47,003 nt of DNA, from NCBI GenBank assembly GCA_913056255.1, contig CAJXLN010000011.1:1-47003 (forward strand), read 5' to 3'. The position numbers and the translations under genes were made by a program. The stretch comes from an uncultured Thermotogae bacterium (lineage in GTDB: Bacteria > Thermotogota > Thermotogae > Mesoaciditogales > Mesoaciditogaceae). Position 1 is the first letter of the stretch; each line of letters opens with the position of its first letter. Of the stretch, positions 4,691 through 13,413 are shown in pieces. The notes beneath the pieces were generated by a model, which saw only the letters and a program-made list of their open reading frames with translations, did not search any database and was not told where the DNA came from.

Positions 4691-6733
4691 GTGAAAAAGG
4701 GTTACCTCTTGACAACTGTGATCGTCTTTCTTGTGGCCGTCGCGGTTCTTACAGGAGTGGTCATGACTTACATCTCGAACACGATAAATCTGAGGGCGGA
4801 CAAAGAGAGGTTGCTGATGGCCTCCCAGGCCTCTATGAGTGGCCTTCAGATGGGAACATCGTACCTCGCACATTTCGCAAATTCGATCGGTGGTTTTTCC
4901 CTCGATTTCACGAGTCCTGCCGCTACCTCATTTTCTTCCGTTCCATGGCTTCAGACAACGAACTCAAACAATTATTTCAATTCGATATACTCATCAGTTG
5001 ACGGAAAGGCATGGAAAACGGCATTTACTTATTTGGCTACGGATGAAAAGATTTTGTGGCTCAACAAGATCCCCGCCGTTGAGAGCTTTTTCGAATCGCT
5101 TAAGGCTTCCGGGACGATCGATTCAATTCCTGACGTTGTGATCATCCAGACCTACGTGGGCAACACAAATACAAGCAGCGCTTACAGGTACCTGACCGTT
5201 TCGCACGCCATTGTCGGCGGGAAGGATGCCTATTCGAGCGGGTTTGTCATGGGAAATTTTCTGAACAAGTACGTTTACTTCACGGACGAAGAGCCATCAA
5301 ACATATACTTTACTTCCCAAGATCTTTTGGACGGACCGTCGAGATCCAACGATACGATAAACATAGAGGGCGATCCGGTATTCGATGGCTTCTCACAGGC
5401 AGCCGGATACAATATCGTATCCGGAAATCCGCGATTTTTAAGCGGACGCGAGGTTCTTTCTTCTGCCGATATAGCTTCCATGAACATGTCCAAGATAGCC
5501 TCCGATTACTCGGCTCAGATAGATTCAGAAGTGGCCTCACCCTCTTACGTGAAGAACTCAGGGGTAACAGCAACCCCATTAGGACTCGATCTTTCCGTGG
5601 TCCAAAACTTTCTCAAGCATATGTTTATCAACGATTTTGAGAACTGGTTGAACTGGTTGAACTCGTGGTCTTGGGTCAGGTATGATTTTTCAAGCCTACC
5701 GACCGTGATACAGAACGATTACAACAACGTTCTCGCCTCGATAGATGGGATACCCTCATTAAAGGTAACCTTCTCGAGAGGCCAGGGCGGCAATTCGGCT
5801 CCCACGATAACCGTTTATTACGGAATAGACACAAGCAACGCGTTCAACGCGGTCAACGCGCTAAAATATCTTCAAACTGACATTCAGATGTATGAGAATA
5901 TCTTCCCGAATATCTTCCCTTTGCCGAATATCTTCCCTTTGAACTCCTATTTTTCAAATCTTCTCAACGTTTTGGAAAACGTTACGAAGCCCAACTGGAA
6001 CCAGGGAAAACTTTTCACTATAAAGCCGACGAAACCATCGGGATCCGTTCCGGGACCTTCCCAAATGGTGATAAACGGCCAGCCTGCCGCCGATCTTCTC
6101 GGACTCTCAAGCCCTAAGACCTTCGACTTCAACTTCAACGGAGTCATAAAGACCGATTCCGATCTTTACATAAGCGGTGAGAAAAACCCCAATGATAACA
6201 GCGACAAGACCGCTTACGTGTCTGGAAAGTACACGCTGTATTCGACGAAGAATGTTTACATCGAATCGAACATAGTCTACAGCGATGCCGACAAACTCTT
6301 AGGAGGGCACGGTCAAACCTCAAACACATGGTTATCATCAAAGGTATCTACATCGATGGTGACGGATTTAAGAAATTCAACAGACACAGATTTTTTGAAC
6401 ATAGTTGCGAACAACAACGTAACTTTGACAAACGAGGTGCCAAACAACACGAAGTTGATGGCAAGCATTTACGCGTTTACAGGACAGTTCGGCTATCAGG
6501 ACTATGATACATCGCCCAAGCCCAAGGGACAACTCTTCCTTTACGGTTCTTTGATGCAATACAAAAGGGGACCGGTAGGCACCTTCAACCCCTGGAACTA
6601 TAATATATCCACTGGTTTCTACAAATATTACGCCTACGACTGGAGGATAGTCGGAGGGCTTCCAGCGAACATGTACGGCACCCCTTCATCCAAGCACAAA
6701 GCGTTTTTACTGGCAGTCAGGACGGTGTTTTGA
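4691..6733 (+). CDS. Large type IV pilus PilX/GspK-like minor pilin
   Basis: A 680-residue protein starting MKKGYLLTTVIVFLVAVAV: a short basic leader, Gly4 and a hydrophobic helix, fitting a class III (prepilin peptidase) signal with cleavage before Tyr5. The fifth mature residue is Thr, not Glu, as in tip-type minor pilins of the PilX/GspK kind. The large extracellular part is Ser/Asn/Tyr-rich with no cysteine pattern or known domain I recognise; it contains a short internal repeat (NIFP three times near residues 402-416). GTG is used as start, with GGGAG about 11 bases upstream. The stop abuts the TTG of the next gene, so the three pilin-like genes form an operon. Role in pilus assembly or adhesion is inferred. 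At about 680 residues it is far larger than usual PilX or GspK. Confidence 0.7.
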   Translation: MKKGYLLTTVIVFLVAVAVLTGVVMTYISNTINLRADKERLLMASQASMSGLQMGTSYLAHFANSIGGFSLDFTSPAATSFSSVPWLQTTNSNNYFNSIYSSVDGKAWKTAFTYLATDEKILWLNKIPAVESFFESLKASGTIDSIPDVVIIQTYVGNTNTSSAYRYLTVSHAIVGGKDAYSSGFVMGNFLNKYVYFTDEEPSNIYFTSQDLLDGPSRSNDTINIEGDPVFDGFSQAAGYNIVSGNPRFLSGREVLSSADIASMNMSKIASDYSAQIDSEVASPSYVKNSGVTATPLGLDLSVVQNFLKHMFINDFENWLNWLNSWSWVRYDFSSLPTVIQNDYNNVLASIDGIPSLKVTFSRGQGGNSAPTITVYYGIDTSNAFNAVNALKYLQTDIQMYENIFPNIFPLPNIFPLNSYFSNLLNVLENVTKPNWNQGKLFTIKPTKPSGSVPGPSQMVINGQPAADLLGLSSPKTFDFNFNGVIKTDSDLYISGEKNPNDNSDKTAYVSGKYTLYSTKNVYIESNIVYSDADKLLGGHGQTSNTWLSSKVSTSMVTDLRNSTDTDFLNIVANNNVTLTNEVPNNTKLMASIYAFTGQFGYQDYDTSPKPKGQLFLYGSLMQYKRGPVGTFNPWNYNISTGFYKYYAYDWRIVGGLPANMYGTPSSKHKAFLLAVRTVF

Positions 6734-7246
6734 TTGAGAAGAGGATTCACTATAATTGAGCTTTTGATCTCGCTCGCGGTAGGGCTTATAGGACTTATGA
6801 TGATAATATTTGCCATGAACATATTTTACTCAACGACTCCGAAGATCCTGGCGAAGGTCAACCAGGCTTCGGATGCGATTCTTGTCAATGAGCTGATGCG
6901 CAGACAAATCGAAATGATGGGTCAGAGTATCTCGACTTTAAAGGTCGCTACTGACGGAAGATGGATATCTTTCAAGATAGAGGTTCCGTTCGGCCAGAAC
7001 GGAATCTATTACCAGCCATACACTCAGAATGCCACGATAACTATGGACGGGTCATCGATAGTAATGGCTTTCAAAAACGCGGACGATCCTTCTTCTGAAC
7101 CCAAGAGCTTCGTCATAGCCAAGAACATTGAGAATCTTTTCTTTTACCAACCGCAAAACGGGACCGTCAAGTACACGATAACGCTGAACAAAAACGGCGT
7201 GACTTCTAAGTACACTTCGGCCATCACGAGCATGAACCTGAGGTGA
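6734..7246 (+). CDS. Type IV pilin-like protein (PilW/GspJ-like)
   Basis: A 170-residue protein starting RRGFTIIELLISLAVGLIG: textbook prepilin signal with cleavage after Gly4, Phe at +1 and Glu at +5, then the N-terminal helix. The rest is a small globular domain ending in antiparallel-looking strands (SFVIAKNIENLFFY). The TTG start directly follows the previous TGA without its own strong ribosome site, so translational coupling is likely. Position between a PilX-like and a PilV-like gene fits a minor-pilin set that primes pilus or pseudopilus assembly. Type IV pilus and type II secretion cannot be told apart here because no ATPase, platform or secretin gene lies in the window. Confidence 0.8.
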   Translation: MRRGFTIIELLISLAVGLIGLMMIIFAMNIFYSTTPKILAKVNQASDAILVNELMRRQIEMMGQSISTLKVATDGRWISFKIEVPFGQNGIYYQPYTQNATITMDGSSIVMAFKNADDPSSEPKSFVIAKNIENLFFYQPQNGTVKYTITLNKNGVTSKYTSAITSMNLR

Positions 7247-7250
7247 AGAT

Positions 7251-7634
7251 GTGAAAAGCGGATCTCTTATAGTTGAGGCTTTGGTTACCATCTTTATAGT
7301 ATTCATAGGTGTGATAATGGTCATGACCATTATGTCGACGTCGATAGGAAAAAGCGACCAGAGCGTGTCGATGTCGAAATTGAACGATTTCGAAGACTAC
7401 GTTAGCCAGTACATTCTGAGACAGGGAATAGCCATGGACGCTTCGTCACTCGAAGCCTCGACCCCAGAAATAAACGATTTGTTCGTCGGGACTAACACTT
7501 CTTACATGAGGTTGGTGAGCATAACCGTCGAACCAACCTTGACACAGGCAGACATAACCGTAAGGCCCGTGAAGTTCGAAATCATTGCAGGAAGGGTCAA
7601 AAGAATCTACACCGTAATTCAGGGAAAGTATTGA
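7251..7634 (+). CDS. Type IV pilin-like protein (PilV/GspI-like)
   Basis: A 127-residue protein starting MKSGSLIVEALVTIFIVFIG: cleavage after Gly4 leaves Ser at +1 and Glu at +5, then a hydrophobic helix; the SLIVEALV pattern is typical of PilV/GspI minor pilins. The GTG start is preceded by GAGGTGA, which overlaps the stop of the previous gene. It is the last gene of the operon; a weak hairpin (AACAATCC/GGATTGTT, about 7677-7704) follows but lacks a good T-tract. Confidence 0.8.
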   Translation: MKSGSLIVEALVTIFIVFIGVIMVMTIMSTSIGKSDQSVSMSKLNDFEDYVSQYILRQGIAMDASSLEASTPEINDLFVGTNTSYMRLVSITVEPTLTQADITVRPVKFEIIAGRVKRIYTVIQGKY

Positions 7635-7751: not shown

Positions 7752-7952
7752 TTGAGTTCATCCGATAATGATGGTAGAATATCCTGTCGAATTGTTTAAA
7801 CCGACGACTGTTTTTGCAGTTGATTTTTATCGATTTCAACATTTTGTGAAAATCGATGTGTTTGCACTTAAATGTGCATTTTTAGTTTCGCCAATTGTTT
7901 TCAAAAGATAAAAGGGTGAACGCGCCTTTTCGAAGGCGCGTTTTTCCTTTTT
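7752..7952 (+). ncRNA. Candidate small RNA: orphan promoter to terminator
   Basis: A promoter-like pair, TTGAGT (7752-7757) and TAGAAT (7775-7780) with a 17-bp spacer, is followed by hairpins (ATCGATTT/AAATCGAT near 7829-7856; TGCAC/GTGCA near 7864-7879) and a strong intrinsic terminator: a 10-bp stem AACGCGCCTT/AAGGCGCGTT with a TTCG loop at 7919-7942 and a T-rich tail. No ORF of credible size lies between. Expected transcript is about 160 nt from near 7787. It resembles no RNA family I can name. It could instead be a readthrough terminator for the pilin operon plus a chance promoter. Confidence 0.45.
7919..7952 (+). terminator. Strong intrinsic terminator
   Basis: Ten-base-pair stem AACGCGCCTT/AAGGCGCGTT, TTCG tetraloop, then TTTCCTTTTT. 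It ends whatever is transcribed from the pilin operon or the putative small RNA before the exporter operon. Confidence 0.9.
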
Positions 7953-8049
7953 AACTTCCTGCGCAAAAGAGCCTTCCCAAAAGTTTCCTTTGCTTCTGGT
8001 TATAAAAAAACAACCTTTTCTTAAATGTAATGACACAAAGAAAGTTTAT

Positions 8050-8081
8050 ATTATGCAATGCATAATTATGCATTGCATAAT
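8050..8081. promoter_or_regulatory. Perfect 32-bp palindrome, likely operator
   Basis: Positions 8050-8065 and 8066-8081 are exact reverse complements with no spacer. Each arm is ATTATGCAATGCATAA, so the site carries nested TATGCA half-sites. It lies 21 bases before the exporter ATG, between a weak promoter region (TATATT at 8047-8052 overlapping the left arm) and the GAGGTG ribosome site. The position fits a repressor site governing the exporter operon. No T-tract follows, so it is not a terminator. The cognate regulator is unknown; the PhaR-type protein at 12825 is one candidate. Confidence 0.8.
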
Positions 8082-8102
8082 AAAAATAAACGAGGTGTTT
8101 TT

Positions 8103-10889
8103 ATGGAAAAATTAGGAAGGTGGATCGCGAAGTACAGATGGCCAATAATCGTTCTTTTTATAATCTTCACCGTCTTCATGATCTACGAGGCTTCGAAGGT
8201 CCAGATAATCGATGACATAACTAAATACGTGCCGTCTAACGATCCGCAGATATCCTTCTTCAAAAAGGTTGCAAAGGAATTCAACATGAACAACTTCATC
8301 CTCGTCGGGATGGAGTACCACGATCTTTTCTCGGAAAGCTCACTTTCCAACTTGGCAAAACTTACCGGTAAACTCGAGGACCTTCCGGGTGTCACGTCCG
8401 TCCTTTCGATGACGAACGCGCCGTGGGTCGAAAGCGCGAACGGAACCGTTCGGATCTCGAAGATCGAAAAAATACTTCCTAAAACCGCAAAAGAATCCGC
8501 GGCGCTTAAAAAACAGGTAATGGCTTCCCCGCTTTTCAAAGGCCAGTTCGTATCACCGAACGGGCATTCCACACTTATGATAGTTAGCCTGCCCTCTTCC
8601 ATGACGGCAGTCAAAAGCGTCGAGACGACTAAAAGAATCGAAAATTACATAAACGCCAATTCGACCGCGGAGAAGATTTACTACACGGGGATACCTCCGT
8701 CAAACGTTTCAGCGAGATCGATGGCCATCAAAAACCTCATGATCCTCATACCACTAGCGCTTCTCGCAGTCGCAGCGGTCCTTTTCTTCGCATTCAGGAA
8801 CGTTCAGGGATTTGTCCTCCCACTTCTTTCGGTTATAGTATCTTCGACATGGGTGATGGGGCTGATACATCTGCTCGGATTCACGATGACATTGGCAAAC
8901 ATCTCTATACCCGTTATAGTCATAGCACTTGGAAACGCCTATGGGATATATATAGTCAACAAGTACATGGAGGAAAGGGACCTGGATCACTCGGTCCGGC
9001 TATCGCACACGCTCCACGACATAGGATTTGCGGTTATCCTGAGCGCGACGACGACCGTGGCCTCCTTTCTTTCACTGCTGACCGTAAACATAAGACCGGT
9101 AAAGTACTTCGGGATCTTCACGGCGATCGGGATACTTTTTGCGCTCATCACGAACATTTTCTTCACCCCCGCACTCGTTTCTTTTTCAAACAAACATATC
9201 TCGAAGACGAAAGACAAGACTTCGTCAAAGCCTGGGCTCTGGAAAAGGAGCGTTGAAGGCATTCTGAGGCACCGAGGGTTATCCATGGCAATGGTTCTAG
9301 TCATCGTCGGGATCTTCGGGATTTTCATCTGGAAGATAAAATCCGACATGAGGCTTTCGATCTTGCTCGGAAGGAACAACAATATCGTCAGATCGTTGGA
9401 ATACTTCGACAATCATTTCAAAGGACATGATTTCGTGATAGCCGACTTTAAGGGAACTGCGACGGATCCTTACCTTCTCAGGGCCGAAAACCTCGTTTCA
9501 CTCTACGCCGAGAACCATTCCCCGAGCGTCGGAGGATCTTACTCCCTGGCTAAGGTGATCCGCGAGATGAACAATAAGTTCAACGATCAGAACTACCTTC
9601 CCGGATCGTCGGCAAAAATTCAGAATCTCTGGTTTCTTATGCAGGGTTCCGATCTTTCCCAGCTCGTCAATTCTGCTGCGACCGGCACCATCGTTCAGAT
9701 CAAGGTGAATCCCAATTCTCTCGAAGATATAAAAAAACTGAGAAAAGGCCTCGACTCCTTCGTTGCCTCGAACATTTACAAGAGGTATTCGTACATCAAT
9801 CTTAACAGCGCAAACCCGGAGGAACTAAAAAAGGCAGTCGGTGGTATGGATCTTTACGTTGAAGCATACGCAACTGCACATGGTCTCAAAGCATCACCGA
9901 AGATCATCGACGGAGTCGTCTCAAAGGTCCTGGCTGTGTCCGACAAACAACTTCTCAAAGACAGCTCGACTATGGCCGCGTCAAATGTCACGGATTATCT
10001 GAATTCCTTTGGAATGCTGACTGGACTCCCAGCGACAACCGTTTCTTCCGTTAAAAATGCGATGATCAAGGCCTTTTCGGCAGGGTACACCCAGAATGCG
10101 CTCGAAAATGCTCTCTCGGATTCCATAGGTCCCGACAACGAACAGGCCCTGGCACCGGTGATAGAAATGCAGCTTACGAACGTTGTCGGAACGCTGAGGA
10201 CGAATTACGCGAAGGAGCTTCTCTCGTCGGTTGGCTTTCTTAACACGGAAGAGGTGAACTTTCTGTCTCTGATCCTTTCCGACAGGACCGTGCCGGTCCC
10301 ATCGGAAAACGGAAAGCATTCATTCAAAATCGAAGTCACCGGAGTTCCGATCGTGTACAACTACGTGTCCAACATGCTTATGACCGCGCAGTACGAGTCT
10401 ATGATAATCTCTGCGATCATTGTTTTCGTGCTCCTCGCCTTACAGATGTCTTCCATTTGGATGGGTGTGGTCGGTCTGATTCCTGTTATTCTCACGGTCA
10501 TATTCAACTTCGGGATTATGGGGATCTCCGGGATAACGCTCAACGCGATAACGATAGCGATAGCCTCGATGACGATAGGTGTCGGTGTGGACTACGTCGT
10601 CCAGGTATTCAACAGGTTCAAAATAGAGTTCAAAAAGTGTGGAAACACGCATGACGCGCTTGTAGAAGCGATATCCACCTCTGGACGCGGGCTGCTTTTC
10701 AATTCGATCTCTTCGTCGGCCGGGTTCGCGATCTTGCAGACATCCGATATAGGAGGACTCAGACAGTTCGGAATCCTGGCGATATCGACGATGGTCGTAG
10801 CATTTGTTCTTGCGATCTTCATACTTCCGCCGATTCTTTCTTACGTACCGGACGGGGTTTACAGAAAAATATTCAAGACAAAGGAGTGA
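8103..10889 (+). CDS. RND superfamily exporter (MMPL/HAE3 type)
   Basis: A 928-residue inner-membrane protein with two repeats of an RND half: one membrane segment near the N terminus (about 14-32), a large periplasmic loop, then five to six helices with a sterol-sensing-like block (about 215-355), and a second copy with helices from about 755 to 915. FALITNIFFTPALV and FVLAIFILPPILS close each half in the same way, showing the duplication. Such MMPL/HAE3 proteins move lipids or other hydrophobic molecules using proton-motive force. The ATG at 8103 is chosen for GAGGTG six bases upstream; an earlier in-frame ATG would fall inside the palindrome. The following LolA-like and barrel genes are spaced 4 and 10 bases apart, suggesting a three-part envelope lipid-transport system. 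Confidence 0.85.
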   Translation: MEKLGRWIAKYRWPIIVLFIIFTVFMIYEASKVQIIDDITKYVPSNDPQISFFKKVAKEFNMNNFILVGMEYHDLFSESSLSNLAKLTGKLEDLPGVTSVLSMTNAPWVESANGTVRISKIEKILPKTAKESAALKKQVMASPLFKGQFVSPNGHSTLMIVSLPSSMTAVKSVETTKRIENYINANSTAEKIYYTGIPPSNVSARSMAIKNLMILIPLALLAVAAVLFFAFRNVQGFVLPLLSVIVSSTWVMGLIHLLGFTMTLANISIPVIVIALGNAYGIYIVNKYMEERDLDHSVRLSHTLHDIGFAVILSATTTVASFLSLLTVNIRPVKYFGIFTAIGILFALITNIFFTPALVSFSNKHISKTKDKTSSKPGLWKRSVEGILRHRGLSMAMVLVIVGIFGIFIWKIKSDMRLSILLGRNNNIVRSLEYFDNHFKGHDFVIADFKGTATDPYLLRAENLVSLYAENHSPSVGGSYSLAKVIREMNNKFNDQNYLPGSSAKIQNLWFLMQGSDLSQLVNSAATGTIVQIKVNPNSLEDIKKLRKGLDSFVASNIYKRYSYINLNSANPEELKKAVGGMDLYVEAYATAHGLKASPKIIDGVVSKVLAVSDKQLLKDSSTMAASNVTDYLNSFGMLTGLPATTVSSVKNAMIKAFSAGYTQNALENALSDSIGPDNEQALAPVIEMQLTNVVGTLRTNYAKELLSSVGFLNTEEVNFLSLILSDRTVPVPSENGKHSFKIEVTGVPIVYNYVSNMLMTAQYESMIISAIIVFVLLALQMSSIWMGVVGLIPVILTVIFNFGIMGISGITLNAITIAIASMTIGVGVDYVVQVFNRFKIEFKKCGNTHDALVEAISTSGRGLLFNSISSSAGFAILQTSDIGGLRQFGILAISTMVVAFVLAIFILPPILSYVPDGVYRKIFKTKE

Positions 10890-10893
10890 TTTT

Positions 10894-11655
10894 ATGAAGA
10901 AGATTTTATTGGTTCTATCGGCAATTTTTGCGGTTCTCGCGACAGTTTCGTTCGCGGTCACCGGAGAACAGGTCATGGATCAAATGGTGAACACTAATTC
11001 CAATTTCAAAACTCAGAAGACCCAAATGAACATGACCATTCAGGCGAAGGGGCAGCAGGACAAGAACTACAGCCTTGTCATATACGTGTACAACAATAAG
11101 ACTTCGGGTAAAAAGTACGCACTGATACGATTCACGTCTCCCCAGAGCGTCAAAGGACTTTCTTTCCTGAGCCTCGGAAAAGACAACGAGTATCTTTACA
11201 TGCCAGCGTACCATAGGGTCGAGCGTGTTGCCGGATCGTTGAAAAATTCCAAATTCGCCGGCTCCGACTTCACCTACAGCGATCTTTCCTTACTGTATTC
11301 GCAGAAGGAAAGCGGAAAGTACACGATCGTGACCGAAAACTCAGACGAATACGTTCTCTCGATCCTTCCGTCCGATTCAAACGCGGAATATTCTAAACTC
11401 ATGATGAACGTCGTGAAGTCCCATATGCTTCCCACGAAGGTACAGTTTTACAAAGACGGAAAGCTTTACAAAACGCTCTACGCTTCTTCCCTCAAAGAGG
11501 TTAATGGGAGATGGATCTTCAAGAATATCAAACTCGAAATGGCGAACGGTTCCTCTAAAACCTTCCTTACACTCGCAAGCACGAAGTTCAACCTCAACAT
11601 TCCAGTTTCTTTCTTCTCAGTCAGGACACTTTTTCTGCCGGTTTTGAAATACTGA
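10894..11655 (+). CDS. LolA-like outer membrane lipoprotein-sorting protein
   Basis: A 253-residue secreted protein with signal peptide MKKILLVLSAIFAVLATVSF, cleaved after Ala21. The mature part is the COG2834-type LolA/LppX-like half-barrel: KNYSLVIYVYNNKTSGKKY, ALIRFTSPQSVKGLSFLSL, DNEYLYMPAYHRVERVAG and FAGSDFTYSDL are the recognisable strands. This family regularly sits beside MMPL-type RND exporters, and the periplasmic pocket is thought to carry a lipid between membranes. AAGGAG lies 8 bases before the ATG and just overlaps the exporter's end. Cargo unknown. Confidence 0.85.
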   Translation: MKKILLVLSAIFAVLATVSFAVTGEQVMDQMVNTNSNFKTQKTQMNMTIQAKGQQDKNYSLVIYVYNNKTSGKKYALIRFTSPQSVKGLSFLSLGKDNEYLYMPAYHRVERVAGSLKNSKFAGSDFTYSDLSLLYSQKESGKYTIVTENSDEYVLSILPSDSNAEYSKLMMNVVKSHMLPTKVQFYKDGKLYKTLYASSLKEVNGRWIFKNIKLEMANGSSKTFLTLASTKFNLNIPVSFFSVRTLFLPVLKY

Positions 11656-11665
11656 GGTGATTTGG

Positions 11666-12802
11666 ATGAAAAAAATCTTCGTTTATGCGGTAATTATGAT
11701 CTTGGCGGTGGCAGCCTTTGCTGCGCCGCAACTCTCCGGGAACGGAGGATACGTCTTCAGATACTCCGGCGGCAAGATAATCCAGGCCGTAAGGGACGTC
11801 AACACGTATTCGATGCAGGTAGGGGATTCCTTCACCGCGAAGATCCAATTCACGCTCATGGAGTCCCAAGCGCTTGCCGATAGCTTCGCCTTTAACTGCA
11901 ACGCGCCCTTATTTTCGCAGTCGAGCATGGCGAACCTCACATTCAATGAACTGTACCTCCTCTACAACGGAACGGATATGGGAATAAAAGCCGGGAAGTT
12001 CTACACATCCTGGGGGACGAGCCCAATCGCCAATCCTGTAAATCTTCTCGAGCCGTACGATTTCACCGATATCTTCAATTCTCCAGTGAAAAAATCCATT
12101 CTCGGTGTCCAGCTCACGCACTGGTTCAAAGACGGCTCATCTTTCGAGGCAGATATCGTGCCGACCTTCACGCCCGACGCTTTTCCGAAACTTCCATCGA
12201 CATCGATCGAGAACGTTTTGCAGACGCCTAAAAACGTGCAGATCGGCGCGAGGTACTCCGGTTTTATGGGAAACTACAACGTTGCCGTAGACGCGTATCA
12301 CGGGTTCGTACATACGTACGTCCCGACGGCTTCGGGAACCTTTTACCATCCCGGCCTGAACGCCGTGGGCGGAGAATTATCAGGACCGGTACCGTTCTAT
12401 TCGGACTACAATCTCTACGGCGAAGGAATGGTGTCGTTGAAGGCAAACGGTGTCAATTTCACCGGCTTAGTCGGTGTGAACGGCTTCATCTTTGGCCAGA
12501 TGACCGGACTCGAGATAGTCAGGGGACTCCCTGGCCAGGCCCCGGGAAATTTTGAAAACGCAGCCTTCCTCTACATCAACAGGAACGTGAACTCCAATAC
12601 GGTCTTCAACGGGACCGCGGCAATCGGCCTTACCGATTCCGGGAAAACCGGATACTTCGCTACAGGCTATTTGAATTACCATCCGACCCAGGATCTTTCT
12701 CTCGTAGTTGGAGCAAACTGGTCCAGCGGAGAGAAGGGCGAGTACTTCGAATCGCAAAGCTCTTCCAACGGCTTTTACCTGAAAGGGATTGTTTATTTAT
12801 GA
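11666..12802 (+). CDS. Predicted outer-membrane beta-barrel protein
   Basis: A 378-residue protein with signal peptide MKKIFVYAVIMILAVAAFA. The mature sequence has alternating hydrophobic strands rich in Tyr, Gly and Asn (LYLLYNGTDMGIKAGKFYTS; GYFATGYLNYHPTQDLSLVV) and ends in an aromatic/hydrophobic strand (GFYLKGIVYL), as expected of an outer-membrane barrel. It has no close resemblance to a named porin. The ATG at 11666 follows GAGGTG by 6 bases; a GTG at 11657 lies within that site and is unlikely. As last gene of the exporter/LolA-like operon it may be the outer-membrane exit or receptor for the transported lipid; this is inference. Confidence 0.75.
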   Translation: MKKIFVYAVIMILAVAAFAAPQLSGNGGYVFRYSGGKIIQAVRDVNTYSMQVGDSFTAKIQFTLMESQALADSFAFNCNAPLFSQSSMANLTFNELYLLYNGTDMGIKAGKFYTSWGTSPIANPVNLLEPYDFTDIFNSPVKKSILGVQLTHWFKDGSSFEADIVPTFTPDAFPKLPSTSIENVLQTPKNVQIGARYSGFMGNYNVAVDAYHGFVHTYVPTASGTFYHPGLNAVGGELSGPVPFYSDYNLYGEGMVSLKANGVNFTGLVGVNGFIFGQMTGLEIVRGLPGQAPGNFENAAFLYINRNVNSNTVFNGTAAIGLTDSGKTGYFATGYLNYHPTQDLSLVVGANWSSGEKGEYFESQSSSNGFYLKGIVYL

Positions 12803-12818
12803 TGAAAAATGATATATT
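12789..12818 (+). promoter_or_regulatory. Possible leaderless promoter of the PhaR-type gene
   Basis: TTGTTT (12789-12794), 18-bp spacer, TATATT (12813-12818), only 6 bases before the ATG at 12825, which has no Shine-Dalgarno sequence. Transcription would start at or next to the start codon. The -35 box lies in the last codons of the barrel gene. Confidence 0.4.
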
Positions 12819-12824
12819 ACGTTC

Positions 12825-13388
12825 ATGGACAGAAACATAATAATCAAGAGGTATTCCAACAGGAAACTTTACGACACCAATTCGAAGAGGTTCGTCACGC
12901 TCGACGACATAGCCAAGCTTCTAAACTCCGGAAAGAGCATAAAAGTCTTGGAGAAGAGCACGGGCGAGGACGTCACCGCGCACGTGACGGCGAGTCTTTT
13001 GCGCAAGCACTACGATCTCGACGGCAAGCTCCTTAATATACCCAACGAATCGCCGCTTGAACTCATAAAGAACAAGCTCAAGATGATAAAGGTGAAAAGA
13101 TCGCTTGACGTCATGTACCGCCTGGTCAGGCTTAGATCATCCGACAGGAAAACCCTCGACTCGATAGTCGACGGCCTGCTCAAAGAAGGATTCATAACGG
13201 AAGAAATGGCTTTGGAAGCCGAAGAGACGCTTTGGCATCTACTCAAAGAGAGGGATGTGGAGATAGAGAAAAAAATCCTCGGCAGGATAGAGGACGGAGA
13301 CGGCCTTCTCGCGGAACTCGAAAGGCTAAGAGATGAAAACAAAAGGCTCCGCGAAGAGATCGAAGACCTCAAAAAAGAAAAGAAGTAA
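12825..13388 (+). CDS. PHA/PHB accumulation regulator-like DNA-binding protein
   Basis: A 187-residue protein. Residues 4-60 match the N-terminal DNA-binding domain of PhaR/PHB_acc_N regulators: IIKRYSNRKLYDTNSKRFV, TLDDIAKLLNSG, and a following VLEKSTGEDVTAHV. The middle (about 75-145) is helical and basic; the C terminus (about 150-187) is a highly charged coiled coil. In proteobacteria the domain binds phasin and polyhydroxyalkanoate-gene promoters; no PHA gene is in this window, so the target must be different or distant. It ends the exporter operon but may have its own leaderless promoter. A strong terminator follows at once. It is a candidate for binding the 32-bp palindrome at 8050-8081. 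Confidence 0.8.
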   Translation: MDRNIIIKRYSNRKLYDTNSKRFVTLDDIAKLLNSGKSIKVLEKSTGEDVTAHVTASLLRKHYDLDGKLLNIPNESPLELIKNKLKMIKVKRSLDVMYRLVRLRSSDRKTLDSIVDGLLKEGFITEEMALEAEETLWHLLKERDVEIEKKILGRIEDGDGLLAELERLRDENKRLREEIEDLKKEKK

Positions 13389-13413
13389 GGCGGCACTTAG
13401 TGCCGCCTTTTTT
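13387..13413 (+). terminator. Intrinsic terminator after the PhaR-type gene
   Basis: Stem AAGGCGGCAC/GTGCCGCCTT with a TTA loop followed by six T. It overlaps the TAA stop. It marks the end of the G/C-richer block. From 13414 to 13625 I see only a perfect -35-like TTGACA at 13563 with no good -10. Confidence 0.95.

Follow-up and report, generated by a model that had tools for sequence, protein, structure and literature searches.

The window analysed here, a stretch of DNA of 47,003 nucleotides, is contig C11 of a draft Mesoaciditogaceae genome (1.63 Mb, 89% complete). Four contiguous genes on the same strand at 8103-13388 encode an MMPL transporter, a LolA-like protein, a probable barrel and a PHB_acc_N regulator (Table 1). 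An earlier note on this DNA had named these four genes as neighbours, and Pfam matches and gene positions confirmed the arrangement, except for the identity of the barrel. Since terminator-like hairpins flank the unit and its intergenic gaps measure only 4, 10 and 22 bases, the genes are likely transcribed together. The transporter start was set at 8103, with a ribosome site (GAGGTG) at 8092-8097; a longer open reading frame from 8058 was rejected, as it would start within the operator. Three consecutive genes with prepilin-like N-termini occupy 4691-7634, upstream of the unit and of its left-hand hairpin.

Table 1. Features of the four-gene unit and its flanks (positions in the window).
Feature	Position	Strand	Evidence
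Terminator-like hairpin of the upstream pilin-like genes; left boundary	7918-7943	+	11 pairs, U tail
Probable promoter: -35-like ATGTAA (8025-8030), 16-bp spacer, -10-like TATATT (8047-8052)	8025-8052	+	Alignment of relatives
Operator palindrome 1, TTATGCAATGCATAA	8051-8065	.	Exact palindrome; fits PhaR consensus
Operator palindrome 2, TTATGCATTGCATAA	8066-8080	.	Exact palindrome
MMPL/HAE3-type RND transporter, 928 aa	8103-10889	+	PF03176, E 1.4e-42
LolA-like periplasmic protein, 253 aa, signal-peptide-like N-terminus	10894-11655	+	PF17131, E 4e-41
Probable outer-membrane beta-barrel, 378 aa, signal-peptide-like N-terminus	11666-12802	+	Orthologues weakly DUF1302
PhaR-type regulator, PHB_acc_N domain	12825-13388	+	PF07879, E 2.7e-19
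Terminator-like hairpin; right boundary of unit	13387-13409	+	Hairpin

The best NCBIfam match of the RND pump was the HAE3 model TIGR00921 (271 bits, under the cut-off of 352), and its relatives in the PDB were MmpL4, HpnN and Patched. The LolA-like protein matched the PDB entries 9tp6, 3bk5, 4z48 and 3buu, the last three being structures cited for AmeB (PMC6394551). The third gene product had no Pfam match of its own; it is strand-rich, and its AlphaFold model was poor (pLDDT 38). Two of the ten aligned orthologues matched the barrel family DUF1302 weakly, with an E value of 4e-4 at best. Because the orthologue matches are weak and the model failed, the barrel named in the earlier note is probable but not proven.

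Paired palindromes at the probable promoter

Two perfect, abutting 15-bp palindromes of the form TTATGCA-N-TGCATAA were found at 8051-8080. From base composition about 0.015 exact copies would be expected in the genome, and these two are the only ones present, so the site that the earlier note had seen at 8050-8081 is real. The promoter was placed by alignment of relatives and was missed by a sigma-70 consensus scan; its putative -10 element shares its final two bases with the start of the operator. In nine of ten operons the promoter-proximal site and the bases preceding it form TATATTATGC, indicating that the site overlaps the likely -10, as expected of a repressor site.

The palindromes were compared with published PhaR sites. 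The R. eutropha motif, YTKNTGCRNYGCANMAR, is palindromic around a single central base (PMC12849132), the S. meliloti site has the core YGCRNYGCR with AT-rich arms, and the R. sphaeroides site is CTGCNNNGCAG (PMC12542648); at phaP1, paired sites lie near -10/-35 (PMC12849132, PMC12542648). A PhaR operator, TGCRNYGCA, precedes the exporter operon. The inner 15 bases of the Ralstonia motif fit the window site, and the outermost two of its 17 positions (8050 A, 8066 T) do not. Sites in other Thermotogota vary precisely at the R and Y positions (TGCGATGCA, TGCAACGCA, TGCGGCGCA). This variation and the match to the published motifs together give independent support that the site is read by the PHB_acc_N protein rather than by another factor.

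Further targets were sought among near-matches. Two-mismatch matches in the own genome were no more numerous than those of the reversed pattern, and about 16 one-mismatch copies lay away from the operon, against 17 for the reversed pattern in the same 19 genomes, which is background. The near-matches at C10:31465 in the own genome and at C18:3588 in the relative G015 lie in a single shared stretch of coding sequence, within a radical-SAM gene resembling hydG. Both were rejected as regulon members because they share this coding stretch and the total equals that of the reversed-pattern control.

Distribution of the regulator, its site and the exporter in Thermotogota

Among 103 Thermotogota genomes, a PHB_acc_N regulator was found in 11, six of them Mesoaciditogaceae and five of a second family (f9); the names given to f9 rest on genomes G080 and G069, which we take to be Thermosipho melanesiensis and Fervidobacterium nodosum. 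The exact palindrome occurred in nine of the 11 genomes with the regulator and in none of the 92 without it (Fisher test, 2.2e-11), and every exact copy preceded the exporter operon or its remnant. A relaxed pattern, TTATGCRNYGCATAA (TGC[AG]N[CT]GCA within TTA...TAA), was present in all 11 regulator genomes and in none of eight tested genomes lacking the regulator. Nearly all operons have two sites, and in nearly all one site lies over or adjoins the -10; their spacing, 15-20 bp in most Mesoaciditogaceae, reaches 83 bp in G016 and 64-67 bp in Thermosipho. The palindromes thus accompany the regulator from genome to genome; this, and their likeness to published PhaR sites, agrees with the connection drawn in the earlier note.

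The full four-gene order was retained at ten loci in ten genomes of two distant families, the window included, with identities to the window proteins of 31-58% for the MMPL transporter and 28-62% for the regulator at the other loci. The order was thus conserved wherever the regulator occurs, bar one decayed locus and one plasmid copy, and the unlinking of regulator and exporter in relatives, which the earlier note had named as counter-evidence, was not observed. At the decayed locus (L027 of the Fervidobacterium-like G069; locus positions 8766-10066) the operator and the PhaR-type gene persist, the MMPL and LolA genes are gone, and the gene between is a remnant. The plasmid copy, on pATS2 of A. 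saccharophila, is a further PhaR-type gene that closely resembles the one on the chromosome; it adjoins repeated genes of 361-408 aa that resemble insertion-sequence transposases, and its locus holds neither operator nor exporter. With a regulator and site persisting without the exporter and a regulator without either, other roles are therefore possible.

Among the matches listed, the closest named relatives of the regulator were from Mesoaciditoga or Mesoaciditogaceae assemblies, from Athalassotoga saccharophila NAS-01 and from two MAG contigs assigned to other phyla. These two contigs, labelled 'Brevinema andersonii' (L046) and 'Bacteroidales' (L050), carry the operon with regulators 75% and 49% identical to that of the window, and are probably mis-binned Mesoaciditogaceae. 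None of about 72 PHB_acc_N loci of other phyla among the matches listed had an MMPL or LolA gene within 8 kb.

The LolA profile matched in 21 of the 103 genomes: the ten with regulator and operon, and 11 without the regulator from a third family (f7), presumably the Petrotogaceae, which include Marinitoga. The f7 loci retain the MMPL-LolA-barrel order, and their MMPL and LolA proteins are homologous to those of the window. At eight loci (two scanned with Pfam) the neighbour is a gene for an IS1595-type zinc-ribbon protein of about 250 aa, encoded divergently in front of the exporter, and at three others it is a MarR family gene. The TGCRNYGCA site was absent from all ten f7 upstream regions examined. 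At each of the eight loci with the zinc-ribbon gene, TGCCAC(C/T)AA is found once or twice instead, and most exact copies of the longer repeat in these genomes sit in the same upstream regions. The eight loci are L148 and L150-L156 (for example L150, 2573-3316 and 3316-3472 in the operon reading direction), and direct repeats of the TTTGCCACCAAA type are intergenic there. The zinc-ribbon protein, probably a domesticated transposase relative, has the appearance of an exapted transcription regulator that possesses an operator of its own. As the exporter stays constant while the neighbouring regulator and the upstream repeat differ, regulator and operator appear to have been swapped together. In the MMPL and LolA trees, which are unrooted, PhaR-linked operons group against those of the Petrotogaceae, with a join between long branches.

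Regulator, cargo and alternative explanations

The PHB_acc_N domain of the regulator (69.5 bits against a curated cut-off of 25; matched in 12 of 12 orthologues) spans residues 6-58 and was modelled confidently (pLDDT about 80-92). The remainder is helical or coiled-coil with a long terminal helix and was poorly modelled. The PhaR equivalog TIGR01848 scored 54.5 bits against a cut-off of 109.45, over the first 60 model positions only. The granule-binding PHB_acc domain had no match in the full Pfam list of the window protein up to E 5, nor among the matches listed for 12 regulator members (25 families, up to E 5). Full-length PHB_acc_N homologues of Planctomycetota have the same layout, and one of them (L054, 7992-8561) joins the DNA-binding domain to a C-terminal Pfam phasin domain, PF05597 (E 2.5e-9). 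The Thermotogota and Planctomycetota C-termini aligned with an hhalign probability of 84% (74% with Thermosipho-type rows alone; 0.4-0.6% for reversed controls), which drops to 15% without the coiled coil, a feature that could inflate the likeness. A phasin-like C-terminus that binds hydrophobic surfaces is plausible, though not established. A fold search with the regulator model gave no significant match, the best being to ExbD (E 0.16), a sequence search found no solved structure of a PHB_acc_N protein, and no paper linking PHB_acc_N to Thermotogota or to an exporter was found in the literature searched.

We propose, with a probability of about 0.6 for the explanation as a whole, that the regulator is of PhaR type, serves an Ame-like hydrophobe exporter as its dedicated autorepressor and is probably released by a hydrophobic ligand. 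The unit would then be an inducible export system carrying its own regulator. The RND transporter, LolA-like carrier and barrel would together carry a compound of hydrophobic or amphiphilic nature out of the inner membrane and through the periplasm, either to the 'toga' (the outer membrane) or to the outside. The PhaR-type protein would bind each of the two TTATGCANTGCATAA palindromes as a dimer, over the -10, and so repress the whole operon, its own gene included. Its phasin-like C-terminus would capture a hydrophobic ligand, in the simplest case the exported cargo or the surface of that cargo, which would pull the regulator off the DNA and switch export on, as PHB granules do with classical PhaR. 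Genome comparison establishes the gene content, the operator, its pairing with this regulator and the lack of a PHA synthase, and strongly supports the DNA target and the linkage; binding itself, repression, ligand release and cargo are inferred. Control of the operon through 8051-8080 is very probable; that this control is repression is likely, judging from the position of the site and the habit of the family. Release by a ligand related to the cargo is favoured less firmly.

The family name, and an own genome that is only 89% complete, could suggest an ordinary PhaR serving undetected PHA genes, with the exporter linkage incidental. This has been largely refuted and is highly improbable. A PhaC_N profile search was negative in all 103 Thermotogota genomes (the Caulobacter control was positive), TIGR01836 had no match over its cut-off in any of them, and no PHA synthase was found in the own genome, so the absence of PHA genes remarked on in the earlier note holds, as regards the synthase, across the genomes compared. 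TIGR01836 did give weak matches in 43 of 103 genomes, such as C24:10462-10671 in the own genome; these are short and below the cut-off, and were taken as ordinary alpha/beta hydrolases. The linkage is moreover retained in ten operons of two distant families and no site lies elsewhere; PHA synthesis genes with matching sites, the other finding that would have told against the earlier note, did not turn up. A housekeeping route of envelope biogenesis, in which the operon supplies structural toga lipids and the regulator sets the supply, would agree with the LolA fold and with the lipids moved by MMPL and HpnN relatives. The LolA gene is nevertheless missing from 82 of the 103 genomes, among them near-complete genomes from the same genus and family (the operon is lacking in G010, G011 and G015), and the operon has decayed in G069. 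This patchy occurrence argues against core envelope biogenesis, leaving that route improbable, and it suggests that an accessory, inducible hydrophobe exporter is the better fit; confidence in a toga lipid as cargo is low.

A stronger competitor, although still unlikely, is that the regulator binds its sites and controls the operon but senses no cargo, responding instead to membrane state, carbon, redox or its own level, or acting as an activator. PhaR homologues are pleiotropic and one activates, at phaP3 in R. eutropha (PMC12849132), the missing PHB_acc domain fits a non-cargo signal, and a second site about 65 bp upstream in Thermosipho is in a position that permits activation. Against this, a site over or adjoining the -10 recurs in nearly all operons, and the transporter always has a local regulator, from three families, as is usual for substrate-induced exporters.

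We tentatively suggest that a PHA-type granule sensor became the dedicated repressor of a hydrophobe or lipid exporter, sensing its substrate, and kept its old DNA code in a phylum without PHA, and that a transposase-like zinc-ribbon protein, or MarR, was recruited to the same exporter in sister lineages along with new operators. On that reading PhaR-type proteins would be general sensors of hydrophobic phases rather than PHA regulators. Annotation everywhere treats PHB_acc_N proteins as PHA regulators; in the present case, backed across 103 genomes, the family and its DNA code are retained without the PHA pathway, and the exporter is the only target seen. One protein, one 30-bp site and one operon offer a cheap system for asking whether PhaR senses hydrophobic surfaces generally, and a handle on the cargo of an uncharacterised HAE3/LolA/barrel exporter in bacteria with a little-understood toga envelope.

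Comparison with known systems

Classical PhaR or AniA of Ralstonia, Sinorhizobium and Rhodobacter shares with the Thermotogota regulator the DNA-binding domain and the TGCRNYGCA core with its single central base and AT-rich arms. The classical proteins combine PHB_acc_N with PHB_acc, whereas the window regulator lacks PHB_acc and falls below the PhaR equivalog cut-off; its phylum has no PHA synthase, and its one visible target is the operon that holds its own gene. The MMPL-LolA-barrel operon of the Petrotogaceae differs in having either an IS1595-type zinc-ribbon gene with TGCCACCAA repeats or a MarR gene in place of the PHB_acc_N gene, and no PhaR site. The HpnN hopanoid and MmpL lipid transporters belong to the same RND/MMPL superfamily and move lipids outward, but the window pump scores far below the HpnN family cut-off (111 against 752 bits).

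Judged by its parts, the closest characterised system is AmeABCD of Castellaniella defragrans, which exports apolar monoterpenes and whose deletion lowers tolerance to hydrophobic compounds (PMC6394551). The two systems share three kinds of component, an HAE3-like RND pump, a LolA-superfamily protein and a barrel (a probable one in the Thermotogota unit). The LolA partner is PF17131 LolA_like in the Thermotogota unit and DUF1329 in AmeABCD, and the barrel, DUF1302 in AmeABCD, is only weakly DUF1302-like here. The Thermotogota unit lacks an AmeC-like protein, has a different gene order and, unlike AmeABCD, carries a PhaR-type regulator inside the operon.
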